From positions 1 through 36,679 of the forward strand of contig VGEU01000024.1 in NCBI GenBank assembly GCA_016869145.1: a stretch of DNA of 36,679 nt, written 5' to 3'. This stretch comes from Alphaproteobacteria bacterium. Lineage in GTDB: Bacteria > Pseudomonadota > Alphaproteobacteria > MPNO01 > VGEU01. The notes under the pieces were generated by a model that saw only the letters and a program-made list of their open reading frames with translations, did not search any database and was not told where the DNA came from. Of this stretch, positions 22,484-34,973 are shown piece by piece; position 1 is the first letter of the stretch, and each line of letters starts with the position of its first letter. The translations under genes were made by a program, and so were the position numbers.

Positions 22484-23329
22484 ATGGTCGCCTCGTTTCG
22501 GATCGGTATCGTCCTCGCCGTCATCGCCTCGGCGCTTGCCGTCGCGGGTTCGGCCTCGGCGCTCGTGTTCACCGCCGCGGGCGGCAATCCGGCGGCGATC
22601 CAGGCGACCGTCGATGCCTTCCGCGCCGCGCTCGGGAGCCCGAACAACGCCAACGCGCTCGGGCCGGTCGACGGCGGCCGGCGCGAGATCAATTGGGACG
22701 GCGCGGCGGCGCCGTTCGTGATGGCGCCCGATCTCTTCAACGCCGTCGTCCGCCGCGGCGCGGTGTTCGCGACGCCCGGGACCGGTTTCCGCCAGAGCAA
22801 TCCGACAGGCGGGCCGGATGATCGGTTCAGCTCGATCAACGCGACCTATCCCGACCAGTTCCAGACCTTCTCGGCGCCGCGGCTCTTCACCGCGGTCGGC
22901 AGCAACATCGTCGATGCGTTCTTCTTCGTCCCCGGCACGCCCGAGCCCGTCGTCATCCGCGGTTTCGGCGCCGTCTTCACCGACGTCGATCTCGCAAACG
23001 CGACGCGCATCCAGCTCTACGACGAGAACAACGTCCTGATCGCCGACGAGGCGGTGCCGGTCGCCGCCCAGGGGCTCTCGTTCCTCGGCATCACGCTCGA
23101 CGACGACATCTTCCGCGTGCGCCTGATCAGCGGGTCGACGGCGGTCGGGCCCGACGATTCACCGTCGAACCAGCTCGACGTCGTGGTGATGGACGATTTT
23201 CTCTATTCGGAGCCGCGGCGCATCGATGCGCCGGCGGGCGCGCTCTTTCTCGCCGCCGGCCTCGCCTTCGCCGCCCGGCGCACCCGCCTCAGTCGTGCAC
23301 GGGTCCGTCGACGGGCAGGTTGGTCGTGA
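22484..23329 (+). CDS. secreted hypothetical protein with PEP-CTERM-like C-terminus
   Basis: A 281-residue protein with a signal peptide (1-26, ending SASA). The mature region is beta-rich, with VIRGFGAVFTDVDL and RIQLYDENN, a pattern common in exported PEP-CTERM proteins. The C-terminal tail IDAPAGALFLAAGLAF followed by AARRTRL matches the general layout of such sorting signals: short polar motif, hydrophobic helix, arginine cluster. The canonical PEP triplet is replaced by DAPA, so sorting is uncertain. AGCAGG precedes the ATG. Its last 41 bases overlap the 3' end of the convergent metallophosphoesterase gene. I do not know its function; a surface or extracellular-matrix role is the family expectation. 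Confidence 0.65.
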   Translation: MVASFRIGIVLAVIASALAVAGSASALVFTAAGGNPAAIQATVDAFRAALGSPNNANALGPVDGGRREINWDGAAAPFVMAPDLFNAVVRRGAVFATPGTGFRQSNPTGGPDDRFSSINATYPDQFQTFSAPRLFTAVGSNIVDAFFFVPGTPEPVVIRGFGAVFTDVDLANATRIQLYDENNVLIADEAVPVAAQGLSFLGITLDDDIFRVRLISGSTAVGPDDSPSNQLDVVVMDDFLYSEPRRIDAPAGALFLAAGLAFAARRTRLSRARVRRRAGWS

Positions 23330-24065
23330 TGCGCGAGCGCTCGACGACGACGCGTCCGTCGGCGGCGAGGCGGACCAGGTTGACCGACCGCGCATAGTCG
23401 GGCGAGCCCGAATAAAAGGCGTGCATCGCATCCGGACCGACCCGGGCCGGGCGGTTCCAGTGGCCGAGCGCGACATAGTCGGCCGCCGTCGCCGCGATCT
23501 CGGCGTCCCCGATCAGCCAGGCGGCGCGCGGCACGACCGAGCGGTCGGGCACCGGTTCATAGTGGCCGTGCGCGACCGCGACATGCCAGCGTACGCGGCG
23601 TGGCAGCGGGCTCGCGAGCGGCGCCATGTCCTCGTAGTCGCGGTGCGCGTTGCCCCAGACCTCGAGATCCCAGGCCGGGAACACGACCGAGGCCTCGTGG
23701 GTGACGCCGAGAATGTGGACATTGGCCGGATCGGCGAGCCCGGCGCGGCGATAGACCGACGCCGGCAGCGCCGGGTCGTGGTTCCCGGGCAGGACGACGA
23801 CCTCCATGCCGCAGTCGCCGAGGAGCCGGGTCGCGCGGTCGATGATCGCGACCGGGACGCGGTTGTGGTCAAAGACGTCGCCGGCGAGGATCACGAGATC
23901 GGCCGCCCGGGCGCGCGCGGTCTCGAGCACGGCGCGGAGGCCGAGCGTGCCATCGCCGCCATAGGTCCGGGCCGTATAGTCGTCGTCGACGTGGAGGTCG
24001 GACGAGTGGACGATCACGACATCGCGCGCCGCCGTCCCGCCCGTGGGACGCCTGTTCTCGACCAC
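23289..24065 (-). CDS. metallophosphoesterase (SbcD/calcineurin-like)
   Basis: A 258-residue protein with a complete two-metal calcineurin-type site: Asp23 and His25 in SSDLHVD, Asp63 in AGDVFDH, Asn96 and His97 in PGNHDPA, His166/His168 in VAHGHYE, and His202 in LGHWN. The layout is that of the nuclease/phosphoesterase domain of SbcD-like proteins. It is shorter than full SbcD (about 400 residues) and no sbcC lies nearby, so a DNA-repair role is only one possibility. It starts with GTG, with AGGA about six bases upstream, 64 bp after the last of the four binding-protein genes. It could be the tail of that transcript. Confidence 0.85.
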   Translation of the reverse strand: MVENRRPTGGTAARDVVIVHSSDLHVDDDYTARTYGGDGTLGLRAVLETARARAADLVILAGDVFDHNRVPVAIIDRATRLLGDCGMEVVVLPGNHDPALPASVYRRAGLADPANVHILGVTHEASVVFPAWDLEVWGNAHRDYEDMAPLASPLPRRVRWHVAVAHGHYEPVPDRSVVPRAAWLIGDAEIAATAADYVALGHWNRPARVGPDAMHAFYSGSPDYARSVNLVRLAADGRVVVERSRITTNLPVDGPVHD

Positions 24066-24129: not shown

Positions 24130-25092
24130 CTATTGCGCCTTGATGTTGTTGGCCTGGATGACCGGCACCCACTTGGCCTTCTCGGCCGCGATGAAGGCCG
24201 CGATCTCCTCGAAGGTGCTGGGCGCGGGGTAGAGGACCGCGTTGTTGAGCCGCTGCACGGCCACCGGGTCGCGGAGCGCCGCGTTGACGTCGCGGTGGAT
24301 GCGCTCGACCAGCGCCCGCGGGGTCTGCGACGGGGCGTAGAGGAGGAAGGCGAAATAGGACTCGAGCTCGGGCATGCCGACCTCGTGCACGGTCGGCACG
24401 TTGGGGAGCTCGGGGATGCGCGTCCTCGATGTGACGGCGAGGGCGCGCACCTTGTCCTTCTGGGTGATCGCGGTATTGGGCACGTCCATCGACCACTGCA
24501 CCTCGTTCTTGAGGAAGCCGTCGATGAAGGGCGTCGTGCCGCGATAGGGAATGTGCGTGCTCTCGACGCCGATGCGCATGCGCAGGAACTCGCCGGCGAC
24601 ATGGGGCGTCGTGCCGATGCCGGGCGAGCCGAAATTGGTCTTTCCAGATTCCTTCTTGAGCCAGTCGATGAAGCTCTTGAAGTCGGTCGGCGGGATCAGC
24701 GCGTTGGTCTCCACGATCATCGGTGTGCGCGTCAGGAGGTTGACGGCGACGAGGTCCTTGTCGGCGTCGTAGGGGAGCTTCTCGTAAAGCGCCTTGAAGG
24801 TCGCCATGATGGTGACGCCGCCGATCAGGAGCGTGTGGCCGTCGGGCGGCGATTTCGCGGTGTGATCGGCGGCGACGTTGCTCGCCGCGCCGGGCTTCGA
24901 TTCGACCACGACGGGCTGACCCCAGACGCGGGTCAGGTACTCGCCGATCGAGCGGCCGATGACGTCGGTCGATCCGCCCGGCGCGAATCCGATGATGAGG
25001 CGGACCGGCTTGGTCGGCCAGTCCTGCGCCGCGGCGGGCGCGGCGAGGGACGCGGCGAGCGCAAGGACCACTGCAACGACGCGGGATGCCAT
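24130..25092 (-). CDS. Bug/TctC-family periplasmic binding protein, copy 4
   Basis: A 320-residue tripartite tricarboxylate transporter substrate-binding protein. Residues 1-22 are a signal peptide (PAAAQDWP cleavage region). The ligand-binding loop is IIGFAPGGSTD, with the PGG of typical Bug proteins. YRGTTPFIDGFLKNEVQW is the second domain hallmark. The C-terminus is WVPVIQANNIKAQ. It binds a small organic acid in the periplasm. It is the most divergent of the four tandem copies; the other three have AGG instead of PGG. No TctA or TctB membrane gene is present in the window. Confidence 0.92.
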   Translation of the reverse strand: MASRVVAVVLALAASLAAPAAAQDWPTKPVRLIIGFAPGGSTDVIGRSIGEYLTRVWGQPVVVESKPGAASNVAADHTAKSPPDGHTLLIGGVTIMATFKALYEKLPYDADKDLVAVNLLTRTPMIVETNALIPPTDFKSFIDWLKKESGKTNFGSPGIGTTPHVAGEFLRMRIGVESTHIPYRGTTPFIDGFLKNEVQWSMDVPNTAITQKDKVRALAVTSRTRIPELPNVPTVHEVGMPELESYFAFLLYAPSQTPRALVERIHRDVNAALRDPVAVQRLNNAVLYPAPSTFEEIAAFIAAEKAKWVPVIQANNIKAQ

Positions 25093-25153
25093 CGAGATCG
25101 GTACCTCCTTCTGCGCCGCGGTCGAGCCGCGCGCGGCTGCGGTCGTCGTCCGG

Positions 25154-26122
25154 CTATTCCGCCTTGATGTTGTTGGCCTTGATCAGCGGTACCCACTTGG
25201 CGCGCTCGGATTCGATATAGCGGAGCGTGTCGGCGGTCGAGAGCGGCGACGGATTGACGCCGATCGTCTTGAGCCGGTCGAGCGCGAACGGCTCGCGCAT
25301 GCCGGCGAGCGCGGCGGCCTCCATCTTCTGCGCGATCGCGGCCGGAAGGCCGGCGGGGCCGTACAGGATGAAGGTGGTGTGGACCTCGAAATTGGCGACG
25401 CCGAGCTCGGCGAGTGTCGGCACGTCCGGGAACTCCGGCGCGCGTTTGCTGTCGGCGACCGCGAGCACGCGAATGCGATCCTTGTGGATGACGGCGTTGC
25501 CGATCGAATCGGTGCCCCACTGGACCTCGTTCTTGACCAGCGCCTCGCCGAACGGGGCGGCGCCGCGATAGGCGATGTGGGTGCTGTCGAAGCCGTGGCG
25601 CGCCTTGAACAGCTCGGCCGCGAGGTGGACCATCGAGCCGACGCCCGGCGAGCCGAAATTGTGCTTGCCGGTCTCCTTCCGCATTAAGGCGACGAACTCC
25701 TGATAGGACTTCACCGGGAAGGGCATGCTGGTCTGGAGCACGAGCGGCGTGCGCGTGAGCACCGCGATCGGCATGAGGTCCTTGTTCACGTCGTAGCTGA
25801 GCTTCTCGTAGAGCCACGGGAAGATCGTCGAGACGGTGATGCTCGTGACGTGGAAGGTGTAGCCGTCGGGCGCCGCGCGCGCGGTCAGATCGGCGGCGAC
25901 GTTGCCGCCAGCGCCGGTGCGCGCCTCGACGACGACCGGCTGGCCCCATTGCCGGGTCATGTACTCGCCGAGGACGCGGGCGAGAATATCGGTCGGGCCG
26001 CCGGCGACGAAACCGGTGATGATGCGGATCGGCTTGGTCGGCCAGTCCTGCGCGGCCGCGGGCAGAGCCGCGACGAGGGCTGCGGCCGTCAACGCCGCGA
26101 GGATGGAACGGCGGCCGTGCAT
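25154..26122 (-). CDS. Bug/TctC-family periplasmic binding protein, copy 3
   Basis: A 322-residue paralogue of its neighbours. The signal peptide is 1-24 with cleavage near PAAAQDWP. The ligand loop is IITGFVAGGPTD. GNVAADLTARAAPDGYT and YRGAAPFGEALVKNEVQW are shared almost unchanged with copy 2. The C-terminus is WVPLIKANNIKAE. The ATG at 26122 is chosen because the signal peptide starts there and GGGAGA precedes it; the longer open frame upstream is a shadow of copy 2. The 41-bp gap to copy 2 includes a run of eight T (plus strand). The protein should capture an organic acid, ligand unknown. Confidence 0.93.
   Translation of the reverse strand: MHGRRSILAALTAAALVAALPAAAQDWPTKPIRIITGFVAGGPTDILARVLGEYMTRQWGQPVVVEARTGAGGNVAADLTARAAPDGYTFHVTSITVSTIFPWLYEKLSYDVNKDLMPIAVLTRTPLVLQTSMPFPVKSYQEFVALMRKETGKHNFGSPGVGSMVHLAAELFKARHGFDSTHIAYRGAAPFGEALVKNEVQWGTDSIGNAVIHKDRIRVLAVADSKRAPEFPDVPTLAELGVANFEVHTTFILYGPAGLPAAIAQKMEAAALAGMREPFALDRLKTIGVNPSPLSTADTLRYIESERAKWVPLIKANNIKAE
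26021..26057. repeat. 37-bp exact repeat, copy a (in binding-protein copy 3)
   Basis: Identical to 27031-27067 and in the same orientation, 1010 bp apart. It encodes the end of the signal peptide and QDWPTKPIRI of the mature protein. It is the longest exact match I noticed between the paralogues and could support recombination or record gene conversion. Confidence 0.8.
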
Positions 26123-26163
26123 GGCAGTGGTCTCCCTGTCGTTTTTTTGGCGTAGGCGGGCGT

Positions 26164-27147
26164 TCACTCCGCCCGGATGTTGTTGGCCTTGATCAGCGGA
26201 ACCCAGCGGTCGCGCTCGGCGGCGAAATAGCGCGTGGTCTCGGCGGGCGTCATCGGCGCGGCATAGAGCCCGACGCGGCGCAGGCGCTCGACCGAGGCCG
26301 GATCGCGGAGCGCGCGGATCGTCTCGGCCGAGATCCGCTCGACCAGCGCGGGCGGCAGGCCGGCGGGCGCGAACAGCGCGTGCGCCGTGTAGATCTCGAG
26401 ATCCACATGGCCGAGCTCGGCGAAGATCGGCACGTCCGGGAACTCCTCGACGCGCCGCGCCGCGGCGACCGCGTGGAGCTTGTACTTGCCCTTGTGGATG
26501 ACGGCGTTGCCGATCGGGTCGATGCCCCACTGCACCTCGTTCTTGAGGAGCGCCTCGCCGAACGGCGCCGCGCCGCGATAGGCGATGTGGGTGCTCTGGA
26601 TGCCGAGCCTGCTCTTCAGGAGCTCGGCCGCGAGATGGACGGTGGTGCCGATGCCGGGCGAGCCGTAGTTGAACTTCGCCCCGTCGCGCCGCATCAGCGC
26701 GACGAACTCGGCGAAATCATTGGGCGGAAACGCCATGCTGGTCTCGAGGATCAGCGGCGTCCGGGTCACCACCCCGATTGCGACGAGATCCTTGACCGGA
26801 TCGTAGGAGAGCTTCTCGTAGAGCGCCGGGTAGAAGATCGCGATCGCGGCGCTGTTGACGTGGAGCGTGTAGCCGTCGGGCGCGGCGCGCGCGGTGAGAT
26901 CGGCCGCGACATTGCCGCCCGCGCCCGGCTTCGCCTCGGCGACGACCGGCTGGCCCCAGACCCGCGCGAAGTGGTCGCCGAGGATGCGGGCGATCGCGTC
27001 GGTCGGACCGCCGGCCTGGAACCCGGTCAGGATGCGGATCGGCTTGGTCGGCCAGTCCTGCGCGGCCACCCCAGTCGCCGTCAGAGTCGCCGTCAGGGTA
27101 GCCGCCAGAACCGCGGCGGCGAGGACGAGCCCCAATAGGCGCCGCAT
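26164..27147 (-). CDS. Bug/TctC-family periplasmic binding protein, copy 2
   Basis: A 327-residue binding protein. The signal peptide includes a Thr-Ala repeat (LTATLTATG) and is cleaved near VAAQDWP. The ligand loop is ILTGFQAGGPTD. Conserved segments match copy 3, for example GNVAADLTARAAPDGYT. The C-terminus is WVPLIKANNIRAE. It starts only 10 bp after the copy 1 stop, and the likely ribosome-binding site lies across that stop, so the two are co-expressed. A 37-base stretch of its signal-peptide region is identical to that of copy 3. Ligand unknown. Confidence 0.93.
   Translation of the reverse strand: MRRLLGLVLAAAVLAATLTATLTATGVAAQDWPTKPIRILTGFQAGGPTDAIARILGDHFARVWGQPVVAEAKPGAGGNVAADLTARAAPDGYTLHVNSAAIAIFYPALYEKLSYDPVKDLVAIGVVTRTPLILETSMAFPPNDFAEFVALMRRDGAKFNYGSPGIGTTVHLAAELLKSRLGIQSTHIAYRGAAPFGEALLKNEVQWGIDPIGNAVIHKGKYKLHAVAAARRVEEFPDVPIFAELGHVDLEIYTAHALFAPAGLPPALVERISAETIRALRDPASVERLRRVGLYAAPMTPAETTRYFAAERDRWVPLIKANNIRAE
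27031..27067. repeat. 37-bp exact repeat, copy b (in binding-protein copy 2)
   Basis: Identical to 26021-26057. Recombination between the two would delete about 1 kb and leave one chimeric binding-protein gene in frame. Confidence 0.8.
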
Positions 27148-27157
27148 GGCCGGCCGC

Positions 27158-28126
27158 CTACTCGGCCTTGATATTGTTGGCCTTGATCAGCGGCACCCAC
27201 TTCGCCTCCTCGTCGGCGAGGAACTTCACCGTCTGTTCCGTCGTCATCGGATCGGGATAGAGGCCGACCGCCTTGAGCCGCTCGATCGTCTGCGGCTCGC
27301 GGAGCGCGGCGCCGAACCCGGTCGCGATCCTCTCGACGATCGGCTTCGGGATGCCGATCGGACCGGTCACCATGAAGGCCGACGAGGCTTCCATGCCGGC
27401 GTAGCCGAGCTCGGCGAGCGTCGGAACGTCGGGGAGTTCTTTCGCCCGCTCGCTCGCCATGATGGCCAGCACGCGCAACTTGTCGCGCTGCATCACCGCG
27501 GTGCCGATCGGATCGACGCCCCACTGGACCTCGTTCTTGAGGAGCGCGTCGGCGAAGGGCGCGGTGCCGCGATAGGGAATGTGGGTACTGGCGAGCCCCA
27601 TGCGGATGCGGAACAGCTCGGCCGCGAGGTGCGGCAGCGTGCCGACACCGGGCGAGCCGAAATTCGTCTTCGCGCCGTCGCGCTTCATGAAGCCGATGAA
27701 CTCCTGGAAGTTCTTCACCGGCACCTGGAGGTTCGTCTCGACGACCATCGGCGTCCGCGTCAGGATCGCGATCGGCACGAGCTCCTTCTTCGCGTCATAG
27801 GCGAGCTTTTCGTACATCGCCGGATAGACGTTGAAGACGACCATGCTGTTGACGTGGAGCGTATAGCCGTCGGCCGGCGCGCGCGCGGTGAGCTCGGCCG
27901 CGACATTGCCCGCCGCCCCGGGTCGCGCCTCGACGACGACCGGCTGGCCCCAGGTGCGGGTGAGATAATCGCCGATGATGCGCGACAGCGTGTCGGTCGG
28001 CCCGCCCGCCTGGAACCCGACAAGGATCTTGATCGGCTTGTTCGGATAGTCCTGTGCCGCGGCGGGCATGGCGGCGAACGCGGCGGCCAGCGCGAGCCCA
28101 CTGGCGATCCGGGCAAACAAGCTCAT
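27158..28126 (-). CDS. Bug/TctC-family periplasmic binding protein, copy 1
   Basis: A 322-residue binding protein and the first of four in transcription order. The signal peptide is 1-24 (PAAAQDYP). The ligand loop is ILVGFQAGGPTD. The second lobe has YRGTAPFADALLKNEVQW, and the C-terminus is WVPLIKANNIKAE. I chose the ATG at 28126 because GAGGGAC lies about eight bases upstream and the signal peptide begins there; an ATG six codons earlier and a much longer open frame lack support. It is divergent from the flavin monooxygenase gene across a 180-bp gap, which suggests shared control. Confidence 0.93.
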   Translation of the reverse strand: MSLFARIASGLALAAAFAAMPAAAQDYPNKPIKILVGFQAGGPTDTLSRIIGDYLTRTWGQPVVVEARPGAAGNVAAELTARAPADGYTLHVNSMVVFNVYPAMYEKLAYDAKKELVPIAILTRTPMVVETNLQVPVKNFQEFIGFMKRDGAKTNFGSPGVGTLPHLAAELFRIRMGLASTHIPYRGTAPFADALLKNEVQWGVDPIGTAVMQRDKLRVLAIMASERAKELPDVPTLAELGYAGMEASSAFMVTGPIGIPKPIVERIATGFGAALREPQTIERLKAVGLYPDPMTTEQTVKFLADEEAKWVPLIKANNIKAE

Positions 28127-28180
28127 GGGTCGTCCCTCATCCATCCTGTGGCGATCCGTAAGGTTGAGAGTGGGTGAGGT

Positions 28181-28195
28181 TTGACCACCCGTCAA
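28181..28195. promoter_or_regulatory. TTGAC-N5-GTCAA inverted repeat in the divergent gap
   Basis: A symmetrical element between the divergent binding-protein and monooxygenase genes. On the minus strand TTGACG (28195-28190) could also serve as a -35 box, with a weak CACTCT 17 bp later. It could be an operator overlapping a promoter for the binding-protein operon. The half-sites are only 5 bp, so chance is possible. Confidence 0.3.
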
Positions 28196-28306
28196 GCGAG
28201 CTGGACCCGTCGCACCGCTGCGGCGCGTCACGGCATCTGTTGCGGCTGGCCGCGGTCTCGCATCTAATGGCAGCCGTTCTTCTACACGGGACCGATCACA
28301 GCGACC

Positions 28307-29509
28307 ATGCCCGATACCAGCCGGCCCTCCTTGCGTCCCGATCCCGACTGCCGCGCCGCCTTCATCGACGCCGCGCGCGCGATGGTGCCGGGTCTCCAGG
28401 CCCGCGCCGCTCTCTGCGAACGCGCGCGCGCGATACCTGCCGAGACGCACCGCGCGTTCCGCGATGCGGGTTTCTACCGATTGTTCCAGCCGGCGCGCTA
28501 TGGCGGCTTCGAGATGGACCTCGGGTTGATGATCGACGTTGCGGCCGAGCTCGGGCGCGGTTGCGGCTCCAGCGTCTGGAACTTCACCAATCTCGCCGCG
28601 CAAGGCTGGATCAACGGCATGAAGACGCCCGAGGCCCAGGAGGAGCTGTGGGCCGACGATCCCGATGCGCTAATCGCCTCGTCATTTCCGGGCAAGGACG
28701 CCGTGGTGCGCATCGTCGACGGCGGTGTCGTCGTCAAGGGCACCTGGCACTTCTCCTCGGGCGTCGACTTCGCGCGCTGGAACCACCTCCAGATCTTCCT
28801 CAAGCCCGAGGGCGGCCCGCCCGAGCACCGCTTCGCGCTGATCCCCGACCGTGACTTCACCGTGATCGACGACTGGTTCTCGAACGGGCTCGCCGGCACC
28901 GGCAGCCGATCGATCCGAATCGAGGAGGCGTTCATCCCCGACTACCGCACCCTCAACGCGCGCGACATCGCCGGCGGCCCCACGCCCGGCAGCGCGATCA
29001 ACGCCTCGCCGCTCTACCGCATGCCGTTCTTCGGCGTCGGCGGCAAGCTGTTCTCAGGCCCGGCGCTCGGCATCGCGCGCGGCGCGCTCGAGATGATCGA
29101 GGCCGACATCGCCGGCCGGAGCGCGGTGAGCGGCGTGCGCCTGGCCGAGCAGCAATCGGTCCATCTCCGTATCGCCGAGGCCGGCGCCGAGATCGACGCG
29201 GCGTGGGCGCTCCTGCTCCGCGATTGCGTCGAATCGCGCGATGCCGCGCTCGAGGGCGCGCCGATCGATCTCCTGCGCCGCGCGCGCTGGCGACGCAACA
29301 ATGCCTATGCGATCCTGCTCTCCGTCCGCGCGGTCGAGCGTCTGTTCCTGCTCACCGGCATGCGCGGCCTCGTCCCCGACGACCCGGTGCAGCGCGCCTG
29401 GCGCGACGTTCACGCCTGCGCCGCCCAGGTCGCGATCGCCTGGGACCCGCAGGCGGCGAATTACGGCCGCGCCCGCTTCGGGCTGCCGTTTAACGATCCG
29501 CGCGCCTGA
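28307..29509 (+). CDS. flavin-dependent monooxygenase of the acyl-CoA dehydrogenase fold (HsaA/DszC-like)
   Basis: A 400-residue protein with the acyl-CoA dehydrogenase N-terminal helical domain, a middle beta domain (VVKGTWHFSSGVDFARW, the family's flavin-facing segment) and a type 2 C-terminal helical domain. The middle-domain phrase and LAGTGSRSIRIEEAFIP are characteristic of group D flavin monooxygenases such as HsaA or DszC, not of true acyl-CoA dehydrogenases. These use reduced flavin delivered by a separate reductase to hydroxylate aromatics or related compounds. No reductase gene is in the window. The ATG has only a weak ribosome-binding site. The GMC oxidoreductase gene follows 29 bp downstream, so the pair is probably an operon. 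Confidence 0.85.
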   Translation: MPDTSRPSLRPDPDCRAAFIDAARAMVPGLQARAALCERARAIPAETHRAFRDAGFYRLFQPARYGGFEMDLGLMIDVAAELGRGCGSSVWNFTNLAAQGWINGMKTPEAQEELWADDPDALIASSFPGKDAVVRIVDGGVVVKGTWHFSSGVDFARWNHLQIFLKPEGGPPEHRFALIPDRDFTVIDDWFSNGLAGTGSRSIRIEEAFIPDYRTLNARDIAGGPTPGSAINASPLYRMPFFGVGGKLFSGPALGIARGALEMIEADIAGRSAVSGVRLAEQQSVHLRIAEAGAEIDAAWALLLRDCVESRDAALEGAPIDLLRRARWRRNNAYAILLSVRAVERLFLLTGMRGLVPDDPVQRAWRDVHACAAQVAIAWDPQAANYGRARFGLPFNDPRA

Positions 29510-29538
29510 CCACCCGTTCCGCAGACGGCGCCCGTGAC

Positions 29539-31167
29539 ATGACCGCCAAGAGCTACGACTACATCATCGTCGGCGCCGGCTCGGCCGGCTGCGTCCTCGC
29601 CGACCGGCTGAGCGAAAACGGCGCGCGCGTGCTCGTGCTCGAGGCGGGTCCCGCCGACCGCGATCCGCTGATCCACATCCCCGTGGGGATGGGGCGCATG
29701 CACGCCCGACGCGCGCATGACTGGGGCTATGACAGCGATCCAGAGCCGGGGCTCGACGGCCGCCCGATCGAGGCGATGCGCGGCAAGGTTCTGGGCGGGT
29801 CGTCGTCGATCAACGTCATGGCCTATGTGCGCGGCCATCGCGGCGACTATGACCGCTGGGCGGCGGCCGGCTGCACCGGCTGGTCCTATGCCGAGGTGCT
29901 GCCCTATTTCCGCCGCTGCGAGAGCTGGGAGGGCGGCGAGGACGCTTGGCGCGGCGGCTCAGGCCGGCTCCGCGTGACGCGGACGCGCTGGAAGGACCCG
30001 CTCTTCGACAACTGGATCACGGCCGCGGGCGTCGCCGGCTACGGCGAGACCGCCGACTACAATGGCGCCCGCCAGGAAGGCTTCGGTCGCGCGCAATGGA
30101 CGATCCGCGACGGACGGCGGTGCAGCGCGGCGGTCGCGTTCCTGCGACCGGCCCTTCTCCGTCCCAACGTCACCCTCTACACCGAGGCGCTCGCGACGCG
30201 CGTGGTGATGGAGAAGTCCCGCGCGGCCGGCGTCGTGTTCGAGCACGGCGGCGCGGTCGCGACCGCGCATGCCACGCGCGAGGTGATCCTCGCCGGCGGG
30301 GTGTTCAACTCGCCGCAGCTCCTGATGCTGTCGGGAATCGGGCCGGCCGAGCACCTCCGCGCGGTCGGCATCGCGCCGGTCGTCGATCTCCCTGGTGTCG
30401 GCGGCAATCTGCAGGACCATCTCGCGGTGCATGTCAGTTTCCGCCGCCGCGCGTCGGGCCCGTTCGTCGCCGCGATGCGGTTCGACCGCATGGCGCGCGC
30501 GTTGGTGCGGGCGCATCTCTTCGGGACCGGGCCGGGCACGATGCTGCCGAGCGGGCTGCACGGGTTCATCCGGACCGAGTCGAACGCGCCGGTGCCCGAC
30601 ATCCAGTTCATCTTCCGCGGCACGGCGCCCGATGCCCATCTCTGGTTTCCCGCGATCAAGGCGCCGTTCCGCGATTCCTATTCGATCCGCCCGGTCCTTC
30701 TGCATCCGGAGAGCCGCGGCACGGTGCGGCTGCGGAGCGCGAACCCGCGCGATCACGTCCGCATCGTGCAGAATTTCTTCACCGCGCCGAGGGATCTCGC
30801 AACGCTTCGCGCCGGTGTGCGCGCGGCCGAGGCGGTGGCGTGGGGAAAGCCGCTCGATCCTTTCCGCGGCGAGCCGATCTCGCTCCCGTCGCGTCCCGCG
30901 ACCGACGGCGAGATCGACGCGATGATCCGGAAGACCGCGATCACCGCGCACCACCCGTCCTGCACCTGCCCGATGGGGACGGGGCCGGACGCCGTGCTCG
31001 ATCCCGCGCTCCGCGTCCGCGGCGTCGAGGGCCTGCGCGTGGTCGATGCCGCGGCGATGCCCGATCTCGTCTCGGGCAACATCAACGCCTGCGTCCTGAT
31101 GATGGCCGACAAGGCCTCCGACATGATCCTCGGCCGGCCGACGCTTCCCGCTGCCATCGGCGCCTAG
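29539..31167 (+). CDS. GMC family oxidoreductase (choline dehydrogenase / alcohol dehydrogenase type)
   Basis: A 542-residue FAD enzyme. The Rossmann dinucleotide motif is IIVGAGSAGCVLADRLSE (9-26). GMC signature 1 is GKVLGGSSSINVMAYVRGH (82-100) and signature 2 is GGVFNSPQLLMLSGIGP. The catalytic pair is His472 in HHPSCTCPMG and Asn516 in GNINACV, with the same 44-residue spacing as the choline oxidase pair. It oxidises an alcohol to an aldehyde, passing electrons to the respiratory chain or oxygen. It follows the monooxygenase gene by 29 bp and probably acts on a hydroxylated product or a substrate of the same pathway. The true substrate is unknown; choline is not specifically indicated. 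Confidence 0.9.
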   Translation: MTAKSYDYIIVGAGSAGCVLADRLSENGARVLVLEAGPADRDPLIHIPVGMGRMHARRAHDWGYDSDPEPGLDGRPIEAMRGKVLGGSSSINVMAYVRGHRGDYDRWAAAGCTGWSYAEVLPYFRRCESWEGGEDAWRGGSGRLRVTRTRWKDPLFDNWITAAGVAGYGETADYNGARQEGFGRAQWTIRDGRRCSAAVAFLRPALLRPNVTLYTEALATRVVMEKSRAAGVVFEHGGAVATAHATREVILAGGVFNSPQLLMLSGIGPAEHLRAVGIAPVVDLPGVGGNLQDHLAVHVSFRRRASGPFVAAMRFDRMARALVRAHLFGTGPGTMLPSGLHGFIRTESNAPVPDIQFIFRGTAPDAHLWFPAIKAPFRDSYSIRPVLLHPESRGTVRLRSANPRDHVRIVQNFFTAPRDLATLRAGVRAAEAVAWGKPLDPFRGEPISLPSRPATDGEIDAMIRKTAITAHHPSCTCPMGTGPDAVLDPALRVRGVEGLRVVDAAAMPDLVSGNINACVLMMADKASDMILGRPTLPAAIGA

Positions 31168-31194
31168 GGCGCCACCCGCATCGAGCGCCGCCGC

Positions 31195-32421
31195 TCACGC
31201 CGGCGCGTCGGTCTCCTTGTACTCGAGGCCGAACAGCGTGCAGGCATTGCGGCCGAGGATGTTGCGCTTGGCGCGCTCGGTGAGGAACGGCAGGTCGTAG
31301 ATCACGCTCGGCAGGTCGAAGTCCCAGTGCGGCCAGTCGGAGCAGTAGAGGAGCTGCGTCTCGGCGTTGATCGCCTTGAACGTCGCCTTGAGGAGATCCA
31401 TGTCGGTCATCTCCATCGGCTGCGACGAATAGTACATCTCGCGCATGTACTCGCTCGGCCGGCGCTTGAGGAGCGGCGCCTCCGACGAGCGCATCATGTA
31501 CTCGTTGTCGAGGCGCTGCATGAGATAGGGCACCCACGCGAGGCCGGATTCGATCCACGCCACCTTGAGCCGGGGAAAGCGCTCCGGCATCCCGTTGAGG
31601 ACCCAGTTCGTCATGTGCACGATGTTGCAGTGGACGAACGACAGCGCGTGCATCCCCATGAACGTGTTGGTGAGCGAGATCGAGCCGTCGGCCCAGTTGT
31701 GGCCGGCGTGGAAGCCGACGACGCGTTTGGTCTCCTCGATCGCCTTCCACACCGGGATGTAGCTGTTGTGATAGACCTTGCGCTGGTGCCCGCTCGTCAC
31801 CATGAAGCCGACGACGCCGTCGCAGCCGGCGAACTCCTCGACCGTCTTGAGGCACATCGCGGGATCGCTGAACGGCAGATAGACGAAGGCCTTCACCCGC
31901 TTGTCGACGGTGAGGAGCTTCCGCGTGAGCCAGCGGTTATAGGCGAACGACAACTGCTCGGCGACCTCGGGCTGCGGATGCTGCCCGAACAGAAGAAAAG
32001 GCGTCGGGAACTGGACCGTGTAGTCGACACCCATCGATTCGATCGCGCGCCGGGCGAGGGTGACGTCGCGCGGGACGCTCGTGTCGTCGATGACCTCGCC
32101 GAGCTTCTGCTGATGCGGGATGCGCCCGCCGACGTCCTGGTAGCGGAGACCGGGGTTGGATGTCACGAGCCCGGGGAACTTGCCGCCCCAGTCCTCGAAG
32201 CTCCGCGCCGTGTGGCGAAGGACGTCGCTGTCGAGATAGTCGAGGATCTCGTTCCACGATCCGGTCTCGGTGTGGTGGGCATCGACGTCGACGATGGTGA
32301 ACCGGTGGTAGCCGCGCTCGACCGATTGCTGCCGCGCGCGCGCCAGGATGTCGCGGGTGTCGGTCGCGGTGTTGATCTCGCGGATCGGGAGCTCGCGATG
32401 GGCCTGCTGGCCGGTATCCAT
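31195..32421 (-). CDS. amidohydrolase family protein (PF04909, ACMSD-like)
   Basis: A 408-residue TIM-barrel metal enzyme. The N-terminal metal motif is DVDAHHTE, the barrel has VVGFHAGHNW, and the last motif CSDWPHWDFD supplies the final aspartate. The family includes decarboxylases (ACMSD, gamma-resorcylate), hydratases and lactonases, many in aromatic degradation. I chose the ATG at 32421 because GGAGG lies eight bases upstream; the ATG five codons earlier has its purine run too close. It is convergent with the GMC gene (27 bp apart) and is divergent from the next gene across a 310-bp gap. Reaction unknown. Confidence 0.88.
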   Translation of the reverse strand: MDTGQQAHRELPIREINTATDTRDILARARQQSVERGYHRFTIVDVDAHHTETGSWNEILDYLDSDVLRHTARSFEDWGGKFPGLVTSNPGLRYQDVGGRIPHQQKLGEVIDDTSVPRDVTLARRAIESMGVDYTVQFPTPFLLFGQHPQPEVAEQLSFAYNRWLTRKLLTVDKRVKAFVYLPFSDPAMCLKTVEEFAGCDGVVGFMVTSGHQRKVYHNSYIPVWKAIEETKRVVGFHAGHNWADGSISLTNTFMGMHALSFVHCNIVHMTNWVLNGMPERFPRLKVAWIESGLAWVPYLMQRLDNEYMMRSSEAPLLKRRPSEYMREMYYSSQPMEMTDMDLLKATFKAINAETQLLYCSDWPHWDFDLPSVIYDLPFLTERAKRNILGRNACTLFGLEYKETDAPA

Positions 32422-32731
32422 GATCGTCGCCTCCATCCTGGCACGGGCTTGAGGGCCTCGACCGTATCCGTGCCGCGGCGCGGGTGTCAAACGGCGGCCC
32501 TCGATCCGTTCGGGAGGCCGGCGTGGCCGCCGCAGCCTGGACCGCGGCCTCGCTCACACCGGCGTGAGCCGGGACACCGGGTCCCCGGTCGGCCCGGGAC
32601 TCATCGGCGGCTCACGGTCCATCGACGGCTCACGGTCCATCGACGGCCCCGCGGGTCTTCGTTATCTTTAGTCGTTCGGCATGCCCGCACGATCGAACTG
32701 CCAGCACGGGTCGCGAGCGCAACGAGAGCCC
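32422..32731. promoter_or_regulatory. 310-bp divergent intergenic region with an 18-bp tandem repeat
   Basis: No supported gene. It separates the amidohydrolase from the frameshifted trypsin-like gene. It holds two tandem 18-bp units at 32608-32643 and an AT-rich patch near 32661-32671 (GTTATCTTTA) that could be the -10 region of the downstream gene. Otherwise I see nothing recognisable. Confidence 0.5.
32608..32643 (+). repeat. two tandem copies of an 18-bp unit
   Basis: CGGCTCACGGTCCATCGA occurs twice head to tail, followed by a partial third start (CGGC). It lies about 90-125 bp upstream of the start at 32732. It could be tandem binding sites or a slippage duplication. Confidence 0.85.
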
Positions 32732-33444
32732 ATGAACGGTCCGACGAGCCAGCCCAAGACCGTCAGCGTCGTCCCCGGCGCGACGCTCCAGTTTCTCGAT
32801 CTCGCCTTCGCCCTGGAGAGCGTCGGCAAGCTCCGGCGCCATTTCTGGGAGTATTCGGTCGAGGAGCGGCGCGGCGGCGCGACGGCGCCAAGTTCGAGCT
32901 GTTGCTGGGGCGGTCGGAGGTCTATGTCACGAGCCCCGCGCTCGGGCGGCTGATCCGTGTCGCTGCCCCAAAGATGCTGCCGACGGTCGCGGACGACATC
33001 CGGCTCGCGTTCCTCCGCCTCGTCGAGCGGGCGCCGGACGCGGCGGTGCTGCCGATCGGGCCGATGCCGTCGGCGGGCACCTACAAGGCGCCGAGCTACA
33101 TGACGGAGATCCCGCGCCAGGTCGATCTCGAGCGCTGGCGCCGCGGCGAGCGGCCGTCGAACATGCCGGCGGAGCGCATCGTCGATACGGCGCTGACGCT
33201 CGATGCGGGCCGGCTGCGCATGCGGAGCGGGGGCTCGATCCAAGACCGCGGCGCGCCGCTGGTCGATGCCTGCGGCCGGGTCATCGGCATCGGCGTCGCG
33301 TCGGCCCGGCAAGTGACCGCGGACGGTCCGATCAGGGCCGACGTGGTCCCGGCGGCCATCCTCGCCCGCTTGCTCGGGCGGATCGGCATCCAGGTCGCGA
33401 CCGCGGTCGAGCCGTGCGCGGCGACGGCCCCGCCGCGACGCTGA
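32732..33444 (+). pseudogene. frameshifted gene with trypsin-like C-terminal motif
   Basis: Coding starts at the ATG at 32732 (GAGAG just upstream) and runs in one frame to about 32870, ending FWEYSVEER. It then continues in another frame as DGAKFELLLGRSEVYVTSP to the TGA at 33444. The switch lies in the GC-rich, repetitive stretch 32866-32886. A single insertion, or a 2-base deletion, explains it, whether mutation or sequencing error. Restored, the protein would be about 237 residues with no signal peptide. The tail GAPLVDACGRVIGIGVA resembles the active-site strand of trypsin-like peptidases, where GNSGGPLVD is usual. Here the segment is QDRGAPLVD, so the nucleophilic serine is absent. A catalytic His and Asp are not apparent. 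It may be a non-peptidase relative even when intact. Confidence 0.6.
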
Positions 33445-33512
33445 GCCCCTGGCCGGCGGCTCGGGTTCCGCCTAGTCTTTTCGGCGGCGAGGCGTGAGCG
33501 GCGGGACGGCGC

Positions 33513-34973
33513 ATGAACCGGACGGGCAGGGACTATCTCGAAAGCATCCAGGACGGGCGCGTGATCTATATCGGGAGCGAGCGCGTCGCCGACCAGACAA
33601 CGCATCCCGCCTTCGCCGCGTGCGCGCGCACCTATGCCGCGCTCTACGACCTCAAGGCCAATCCGGCGAACCGCGACGTCCTCACCTACGAGGAGGACGG
33701 TGAGCGCTACGCGATCTGGTATCTGAAGCCGAGATCGGCCGAGGACCTGAAGCGGCGGAACCGCGCCCACCATCGCATCGCGCGGTTCTGCCACGGGCTG
33801 ATGGGCCGGACGCCCGACGCGGGCGGCGGCAATCTCACCGGGCTCGCCATGCGCCCCGAGGCGTTCGACGTCGGCGAGGGCGGCAACCGCGACAATCTCG
33901 CGGCGATCTGGCAGCATCTGCGCGAGGACGACATCTTCCCGACCTATGCGGTCGTGCCGCCGCCAGGCGCGCGCAATCGCGACTACTACCAGTCGGCGGG
34001 CGTCAAGATGCCGGCGCTCCGCGCCGTGCGCGAGACCGATCGCGGCGTCGTCGTCGACGGCATGAAGATGCTCGCGACCGGCGCGGTCTATGCGCACGAG
34101 GTGCTGGTCGGCAACATCATGCCGCTCGCGCCCGACCAGAAGGCGGAATCGATCACCTGCGTGATCCCGCTCAATCTGCCCGGGCTGACGCTGTTCTCGC
34201 GCCCGCCGATGAACCGGCCCGGCGACCGCGAGTTCGATGCGCCCTTGACCCACCGCTACGACGAATCCGACTGTATGCTCGTGTTCCGCGACGCGCTGGT
34301 GCCGTGGGAGAAGGTGATCGTCCACAACAACGCGCCCTTGTCGCGCAGCATCTATGTCGAGACGCCGGCGCACGTGATCTCGAACCACCAGTCGACGGTG
34401 CGTTTCCGCGAGAAGCTCCGTTTTCTTTTGGGCGTCGCGAGCCTGATCACGCGCTACACCGGCGCGCGCGACATCCCGGCGGTGCGCGACACGCTCGCCC
34501 GGCTCGCCGCGATGGAGGCGGGCTATGCCGCGATGGTCGAGGCCCAGGTTCTGGCGCCCGAGACCTATCAGGGCGGCTACGTGATCTACAACCGGCGCTA
34601 TCTCTACGCGGCGCTCCACTGGGCGATGGAGAACCACTCGGCGATCCTCGACATCATGCGCGAGCTGATGGGCGGCGGCCAGTTCCAGTTCCCGGCGACC
34701 ATCGCGGTTGCCGACGACCCCGAGCTCAAGGACATGTTCGACACCTACTGGACCGCCGGCGCCGACAAGGCGATCGACCGAATGAAGCTCTTCAAGCTCG
34801 CCTGGGACGTCGTCGGCTCCGAGCACGCGAGCCGCGCCACGTCCTACGAGAAGTTCTTCGTCGGTCCGGCGCACGCGGTCCGCAACTACAACTTCGTCAA
34901 CGCGCCGTGGGACGCGCTCCACGCCGACGTCGAGGCGCTGATGGCGAGCTACGGGCCGGGGCCGTCACGCTGA
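33513..34973 (+). CDS. 4-hydroxyphenylacetate 3-hydroxylase family monooxygenase (HpaB-like)
   Basis: A 486-residue protein with the HpaB N-terminal domain (RTGRDYLESIQDGRVIYIG) and the C-terminal FAD-binding helical domain (ELMGGGQFQFPA, FKLAWDVVGSEHASR). RFCHGLMGRTPD and the loop MKMLATGAVYAHEVLV are also family traits. HpaB enzymes ortho-hydroxylate phenols with reduced FAD supplied by HpaC. No HpaC-like gene is in the window, so reduced flavin must come from elsewhere. The ATG at 33513 starts at the family motif. It follows the frameshifted gene by 68 bp and precedes the HAD gene by 28 bp. The substrate is probably a phenolic, but is not defined by sequence. Confidence 0.92.
   Translation: MNRTGRDYLESIQDGRVIYIGSERVADQTTHPAFAACARTYAALYDLKANPANRDVLTYEEDGERYAIWYLKPRSAEDLKRRNRAHHRIARFCHGLMGRTPDAGGGNLTGLAMRPEAFDVGEGGNRDNLAAIWQHLREDDIFPTYAVVPPPGARNRDYYQSAGVKMPALRAVRETDRGVVVDGMKMLATGAVYAHEVLVGNIMPLAPDQKAESITCVIPLNLPGLTLFSRPPMNRPGDREFDAPLTHRYDESDCMLVFRDALVPWEKVIVHNNAPLSRSIYVETPAHVISNHQSTVRFREKLRFLLGVASLITRYTGARDIPAVRDTLARLAAMEAGYAAMVEAQVLAPETYQGGYVIYNRRYLYAALHWAMENHSAILDIMRELMGGGQFQFPATIAVADDPELKDMFDTYWTAGADKAIDRMKLFKLAWDVVGSEHASRATSYEKFFVGPAHAVRNYNFVNAPWDALHADVEALMASYGPGPSR

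Follow-up and report, generated by a model that had tools for sequence, protein, structure and literature searches.

The window analysed here is an entire contig (contig 24; 36,679 bp), in which four genes encoding TctC/Bug solute-binding proteins follow one another head to tail on the minus strand; the contig ends are 24 kb and 8.5 kb away from the array. The run begins with copy 1 (28126-27158; 322 aa, AGGPTD loop, PF03401 E value of 1.7e-59), followed after 10 bp by copy 2 (27147-26164; 327 aa, AGGPTD, 2.2e-59), after 41 bp by copy 3 (26122-25154, with its start codon at 26122; 322 aa, AGGPTD, 4.3e-61), and after 61 bp by copy 4 (25092-24130; 320 aa, PGGSTD, 1.5e-52). The scores against the PF03401 (TctC) profile were 179-207 bits at a Pfam gathering cut-off of 27 bits, with coverage from profile positions 1-3 to position 273 of 274. 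The open reading frames and profile matches (E values of 1e-52 to 1e-61) agree with the first-pass annotation, made from the sequence alone, in the four paralogues, the gaps between them, and the distribution of the two loop variants.

All four genes start with ATG, contain no internal stop codon, and are intact. Copies 1, 3, and 4 have a Shine-Dalgarno-like sequence ahead of the ATG, of the GAGGG type in copy 1 and AAGGAGG in copy 4. The mature regions of the proteins are 46-61% identical pairwise, and each N-terminus, as read by eye, is hydrophobic and ends in AAAQD or AAQD. The C-terminal tail that the first-pass annotation had described as shared was present throughout the array, but it is not peculiar to it, as KANNIKAE or near variants also end other Bugs of the genome. 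The dN/dS ratios between copies were 0.60-0.75 (Nei-Gojobori), values that were set aside as evidence because the third-position GC of 91-93% caps synonymous change.

Gene neighborhood and probable co-transcription of the array

The short gaps of 10, 41, and 61 bp, together with the failure to find terminator-like sites on the minus strand between the copies, suggest that the four genes are likely carried on one transcript, probably starting at a single promoter ahead of copy 1. The 180-bp divergent intergenic region (28127..28306, from the gene ends) yielded no sigma-70 consensus in a simple scan and is likely the control region of both the four-gene run and the opposite gene. The latter encodes an HsaA/HpaH-like flavin monooxygenase (28307-29509, plus strand), located upstream of and divergent from the array, and opens a catabolic block (28307..34973) that also includes genes for a GMC oxidoreductase (29539-31167, plus), an amidohydrolase_2 protein (31195-32436, minus), and an HpaB-like 4-hydroxyphenylacetate 3-hydroxylase (33513-34973, plus). 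On the other side, 64 bp downstream of the array, lies a minus-strand gene (23289..24065) for an SbcD-like calcineurin-type phosphoesterase (PF00149, E value of 1.6e-11; TIGR00619 under the cut-off), which is not obviously related to the array. Elsewhere in the window, a molybdenum hydroxylase set, hydantoinase A/B, an amidase, a chromate transporter pair, and glutamate synthase genes were detected.

The scanned genes of the window included neither TctA nor TctB, and none of the nine TctA and nine TctB matches in the whole genome fell on this contig, as the first-pass annotation had stated for the window. With neither tctA nor tctB adjacent, the array does not form a complete TctABC operon. 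Moreover, the window proteins scanned included no histidine kinase, response regulator, chemoreceptor, or transcription factor, so that the sensing role offered in the first-pass annotation found no local support. The idea that the four proteins serve sensing (two-component or chemotaxis) instead of uptake, in the manner of BctC with BctDE in Bordetella, is decidedly unlikely, although it has that precedent, orphan Bugs are often linked to kinases in Rhodoplanes (PMC5994714), and about 1.7 kb separates the contig 47 TctC gene, considered below, from a histidine kinase/response regulator gene.

Fold, binding loops, and ligand pocket

The AlphaFold2 model of copy 1 (pLDDT of 93.5), in which an N-terminal helix is present, matched the terephthalate-binding protein TBP (8hkb) with a Z score of 38.0 and an rmsd of 2.1 over 294 residues, and Bug27 (2qpq) with a Z score of 38. 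Solved TctC proteins as a whole gave Z scores of 32 to 38, compared with about 18 for the next family, and those closest to the array were BugE, AdpC, TBP, BugD, MatC, TphC, and Bug27. By the PF03401 profile and the two-lobed fold predicted for copy 1, the four copies are TctC/Bug solute-binding proteins. Within the domain-1 signature P-F-x-A-G-G-x-x-D, of which P, G, G, and D have been named as very conserved (PMC5812351), all four copies retain F, GG, and D and replace the leading P with G. The same replacement occurs throughout the 14-member clade to which the array belongs, versus 11 of 154 Bugs from other genomes (hereafter foreign Bugs).

To describe the pocket, nine contact positions (31, 35, 36, 150, 155, 177, 179, 197, and 242) were mapped on the terephthalate-binding TBP/TphC (PMC8556258). 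The residues are QPTPLRTPS in copy 1, QPTPTRAPT in copy 2, VPTPMRAST in copy 3, and ASTPTRTVF in copy 4, so that the full set is unique to each copy. From copy 1 to copy 4, position 155 reads L/T/M/T, position 197 P/P/S/V, and position 242 S/T/T/F, and copy 4 alone has S rather than P at position 35. These distinct sets fit different ligands. Of the pocket residues P86, Q150, T155, and T242 that characterise terephthalate-binding proteins, three were compared: Q150 is P in all four copies, T155 is L/T/M/T, and T242 is S/T/T/F, a pattern that does not match the pocket of TphC.

The divergence of the pocket bears on a further reading, in which the array is largely redundant and the duplicates raise the dose of one receptor while drifting without a change of ligand. 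Pocket identity was 49%, compared with 55% for the rest of the protein, and 27% of random position sets were equally low; faster pocket divergence, which would have pointed to new ligands, was not found, and the specialisation for different ligands proposed in the first-pass annotation is not supported statistically. A pocket that diverges no faster than its surroundings speaks for redundancy, as does the retention in all four copies of the YRG loop, P at TphC position 150, and GG-x-T-D. Against it, the copies are well diverged (at the pairwise identities given above) and all intact, and the nine-position contact sets differ between any two of them. A largely redundant array appears unlikely.

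A second suggestion of the first-pass annotation, that the AGGPTD/PGGSTD split marks a difference in binding properties, was rejected, because A or P is the commonest polymorphism at that position, with P in 95 and A in 53 of the 154 foreign Bugs. The loop of TphC contacts its ligand via backbone atoms (PMC8556258). Despite this weak loop marker, copy 4 branches deepest within the array and has different residues at several pocket positions. In addition, the Trp that follows TphC position 242 (position 243), kept in 122 of the 154 foreign Bugs, is replaced by A/A/T/A in copies 1 to 4. This replacement is not specific to the array, as it also occurs in the arrays L066 and L081, and it is absent from the contig 25 array of the same genome and from three-gene arrays; it is regarded as a lead only. 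The two former loci (L066:5950-9870 and L081:4088-8928), from Xanthobacteraceae and Rhodoplanes MAGs, carry Bugs in tandem, four in one run and five in the other, and none of the nine has the usual Trp.

Origin of the array within a genome-specific radiation

The source genome (3.93 Mb, 247 contigs, 99% complete) contains 31 TctC matches, 30 of them above the cut-off, versus nine TctA and nine TctB matches, and its Bugs are therefore mostly orphans. Judged by gene position, seven TctC genes belong to TctABC operons (contigs 1, 9, 21, 35, 47, 92, and 95), one further TctC gene is located near a putatively fused TctA-TctB, and the orphans number about 23. Another run, of four orphan Bugs on the same strand, was located on contig 25 (about 12.9-17.1 kb), and Bug pairs occur on contigs 7 and 52. 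After the contig 25 run (L143:4401-9551) comes a fifth, convergent Bug, and NMT1/TAXI-type binding proteins flank both sides. One run of genes on contig 1 (L149:4310-9438) combines a quinolinate phosphoribosyltransferase gene, a LOG-like gene, and UbiD with an orphan Bug and a remote TctC-like gene, an arrangement that recalls the link of Bug27/Bug69 with nadC (PMC11452294). Furthermore, the TctA and TctB matches share one frame at C46:13958-15841 and C1:52614-54581 (695 and 755 residues), which suggests fused TctA-TctB proteins, and the TctC gene of one TctABC operon (C1:154908-155747) has an in-frame TAG and may be broken or misassembled. The genome also gave 31 matches to the TRAP component DctM (about 30 genes, one of them split) in its 3.93 Mb; together with the 31 TctC matches, these make up a strongly carboxylate-scavenging gene set.

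For the phylogenetic analysis, trees were built with every other Bug of the genome and with 45 to 154 foreign Bugs, the latter drawn from loci matching peptide patterns of copy 1. The four array copies formed one clade in the 30-row own-genome tree (100/99), again in the 66-row mixture-model tree (100/99), and in the 175-row FastTree (99), with copy 4 as the deepest branch and copies 2 and 3 as sisters (100/94, 66-row tree). Because the four copies form one clade against all other Bugs compared, the origin of the array by local tandem duplication is well supported by the trees. The local expansion put forward in the first-pass annotation is thus borne out, and the first of the two checks considered from that annotation, a phylogeny placing the copies far apart, found them together. 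The other, TctAB genes immediately beyond the window, runs up against the contig ends at 24 kb and 8.5 kb from the array. The contig 25 run also formed one clade in the own-genome tree (92/94; left as a polytomy in the 66-row tree), as did the contig 7 pair (100/99, own-genome tree), and local duplication has therefore occurred repeatedly in this genome.

The array, the contig 25 run, and the contig 7 pair all fall inside a 17-member Bug clade (100/99, 66-row tree) that is confined to the source genome, although genomes outside the sample could break it. In 26 other genomes of the order nothing matched copy 1 at E<=1e-45, nor did anything in 384 further genomes of the class at E<=1e-70. In a 398-genome sample of the phylum, the best foreign match had an E value of 2e-70 and identity never exceeded 42%, compared with 53-58% inside the array. 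Orthologous arrays in relatives were found neither in the order nor in the sampled class, where the sampled genomes include none of the same family.

Candidate transporter and comparison with known systems

The sharing of one transporter by the four proteins, the other half of the proposal on ligands in the first-pass annotation, is plausible, and the phylogeny offers a candidate. Contig 47 carries a module with the confirmed order tctB-tctA-tctC, and its TctC is the only member of the 17-member clade with its own TctAB. As this TctC and the 14-member group with the array in it are sisters (100/93), the contig 47 tctBAC module is plausibly the best candidate for a shared transporter, a choice that follows from the position of its TctC in the tree. 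Two points count against this choice: identity between the contig 47 TctC and copy 1 is no more than 37%, so that a conserved docking surface is at best putative, and the genome has eight other TctA proteins that might serve in its place.

Orphan Bugs might also pass their ligands to another transporter family (TRAP or ABC) encoded elsewhere. The genome has about 30 DctM genes, the related Bug pair on contig 52 faces one of them, and Rhodoplanes shows linkage of 8 Bugs to TRAP genes and of 41 to ABC genes (PMC5994714). Nevertheless, the genes identified in the window include none of the TRAP or ABC type, and the case for productive pairing of Bugs with TRAP or ABC membrane parts consists of gene linkage. 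Such a hand-over is considered very unlikely here.

Runs of this kind have been reported previously. Rhodoplanes sp. Z2-YC6860 has 434 TctC proteins and nine complete TTT operons (Rosa et al. 2018, PMC5994714), with tandem arrays of 2, 3, 4, 5, and 9 orphan TTT solute-binding protein genes (PMC5994714). The present genome resembles it in its adjacent TctC genes without TctAB and its lineage-specific expansion, and its nine TctA proteins compare with the nine TTT operons there. In contrast, only three members of the nine-gene Rhodoplanes array are closest to another array member (PMC5994714), whereas all four copies here form one clade, and the expansion is far smaller (31 versus 434). Similarly, TphC of Comamonas is served by a membrane pair, TpiA/TpiB, whose genes lie away from its operon (PMC8556258), and it shares with the array the position of a periplasmic TctC protein beside catabolic genes with the membrane pair elsewhere, as would be the case for the array. 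The model of copy 1 aligns with TphC at a Foldseek TM of about 0.8 and 33% identity; unlike the run of four here, the terephthalate operon holds a single solute-binding protein gene. Bug27/Bug69 (quinolinate, with conserved contacts that include Phe12, Cys136, and Asn228) and AdpC (C6-C9 dicarboxylates) are likewise orphans that share the TctC fold and its pincer loops, but they are encoded by single genes, and Bug27 and AdpC are 29-32% identical to copy 1. The array is therefore a clear, small example of already published orphan TctC runs, to which it adds a run that is strictly monophyletic and one named candidate for the transporter.

Taken together, successive local tandem duplications within a lineage-specific Bug radiation gave rise to the four-gene run, which is probably expressed as one transcript. 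Each protein would be exported and would hold a small carboxylate between its two lobes by the conserved GG-x-T-D and Y-R-G loops. The ligand would most likely be passed to a TctAB pair encoded elsewhere, with contig 47 tctBAC as the best candidate. Because the ligand-contact positions differ, the copies probably bind different but related carboxylates, for which the neighboring hydroxylases suggest aromatic or phenolic acids. We infer the co-transcription, the use of an unlinked TctAB, the choice of that pair, and the ligand class from gene order, phylogeny, and neighboring genes, and assign the whole explanation a probability of roughly 0.55. As a tentative and rather doubtful extension, the contig 47 TctAB may serve a genome-specific radiation of about 16 orphan relatives of its TctC, including the array and the contig 25 run.

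Apart from the transporter candidate, the array is an ordinary case of a published pattern. The transporter partner of orphan Bugs has been a standing question since their discovery in Bordetella, and the small set in this genome (31 TctC and 9 TctA), with one clean clade and a single candidate TctAB, makes the idea of a shared transporter concretely testable. If true, the extended proposal would describe an uptake network with one transporter and many receptors, the history of which could be read from one tree.
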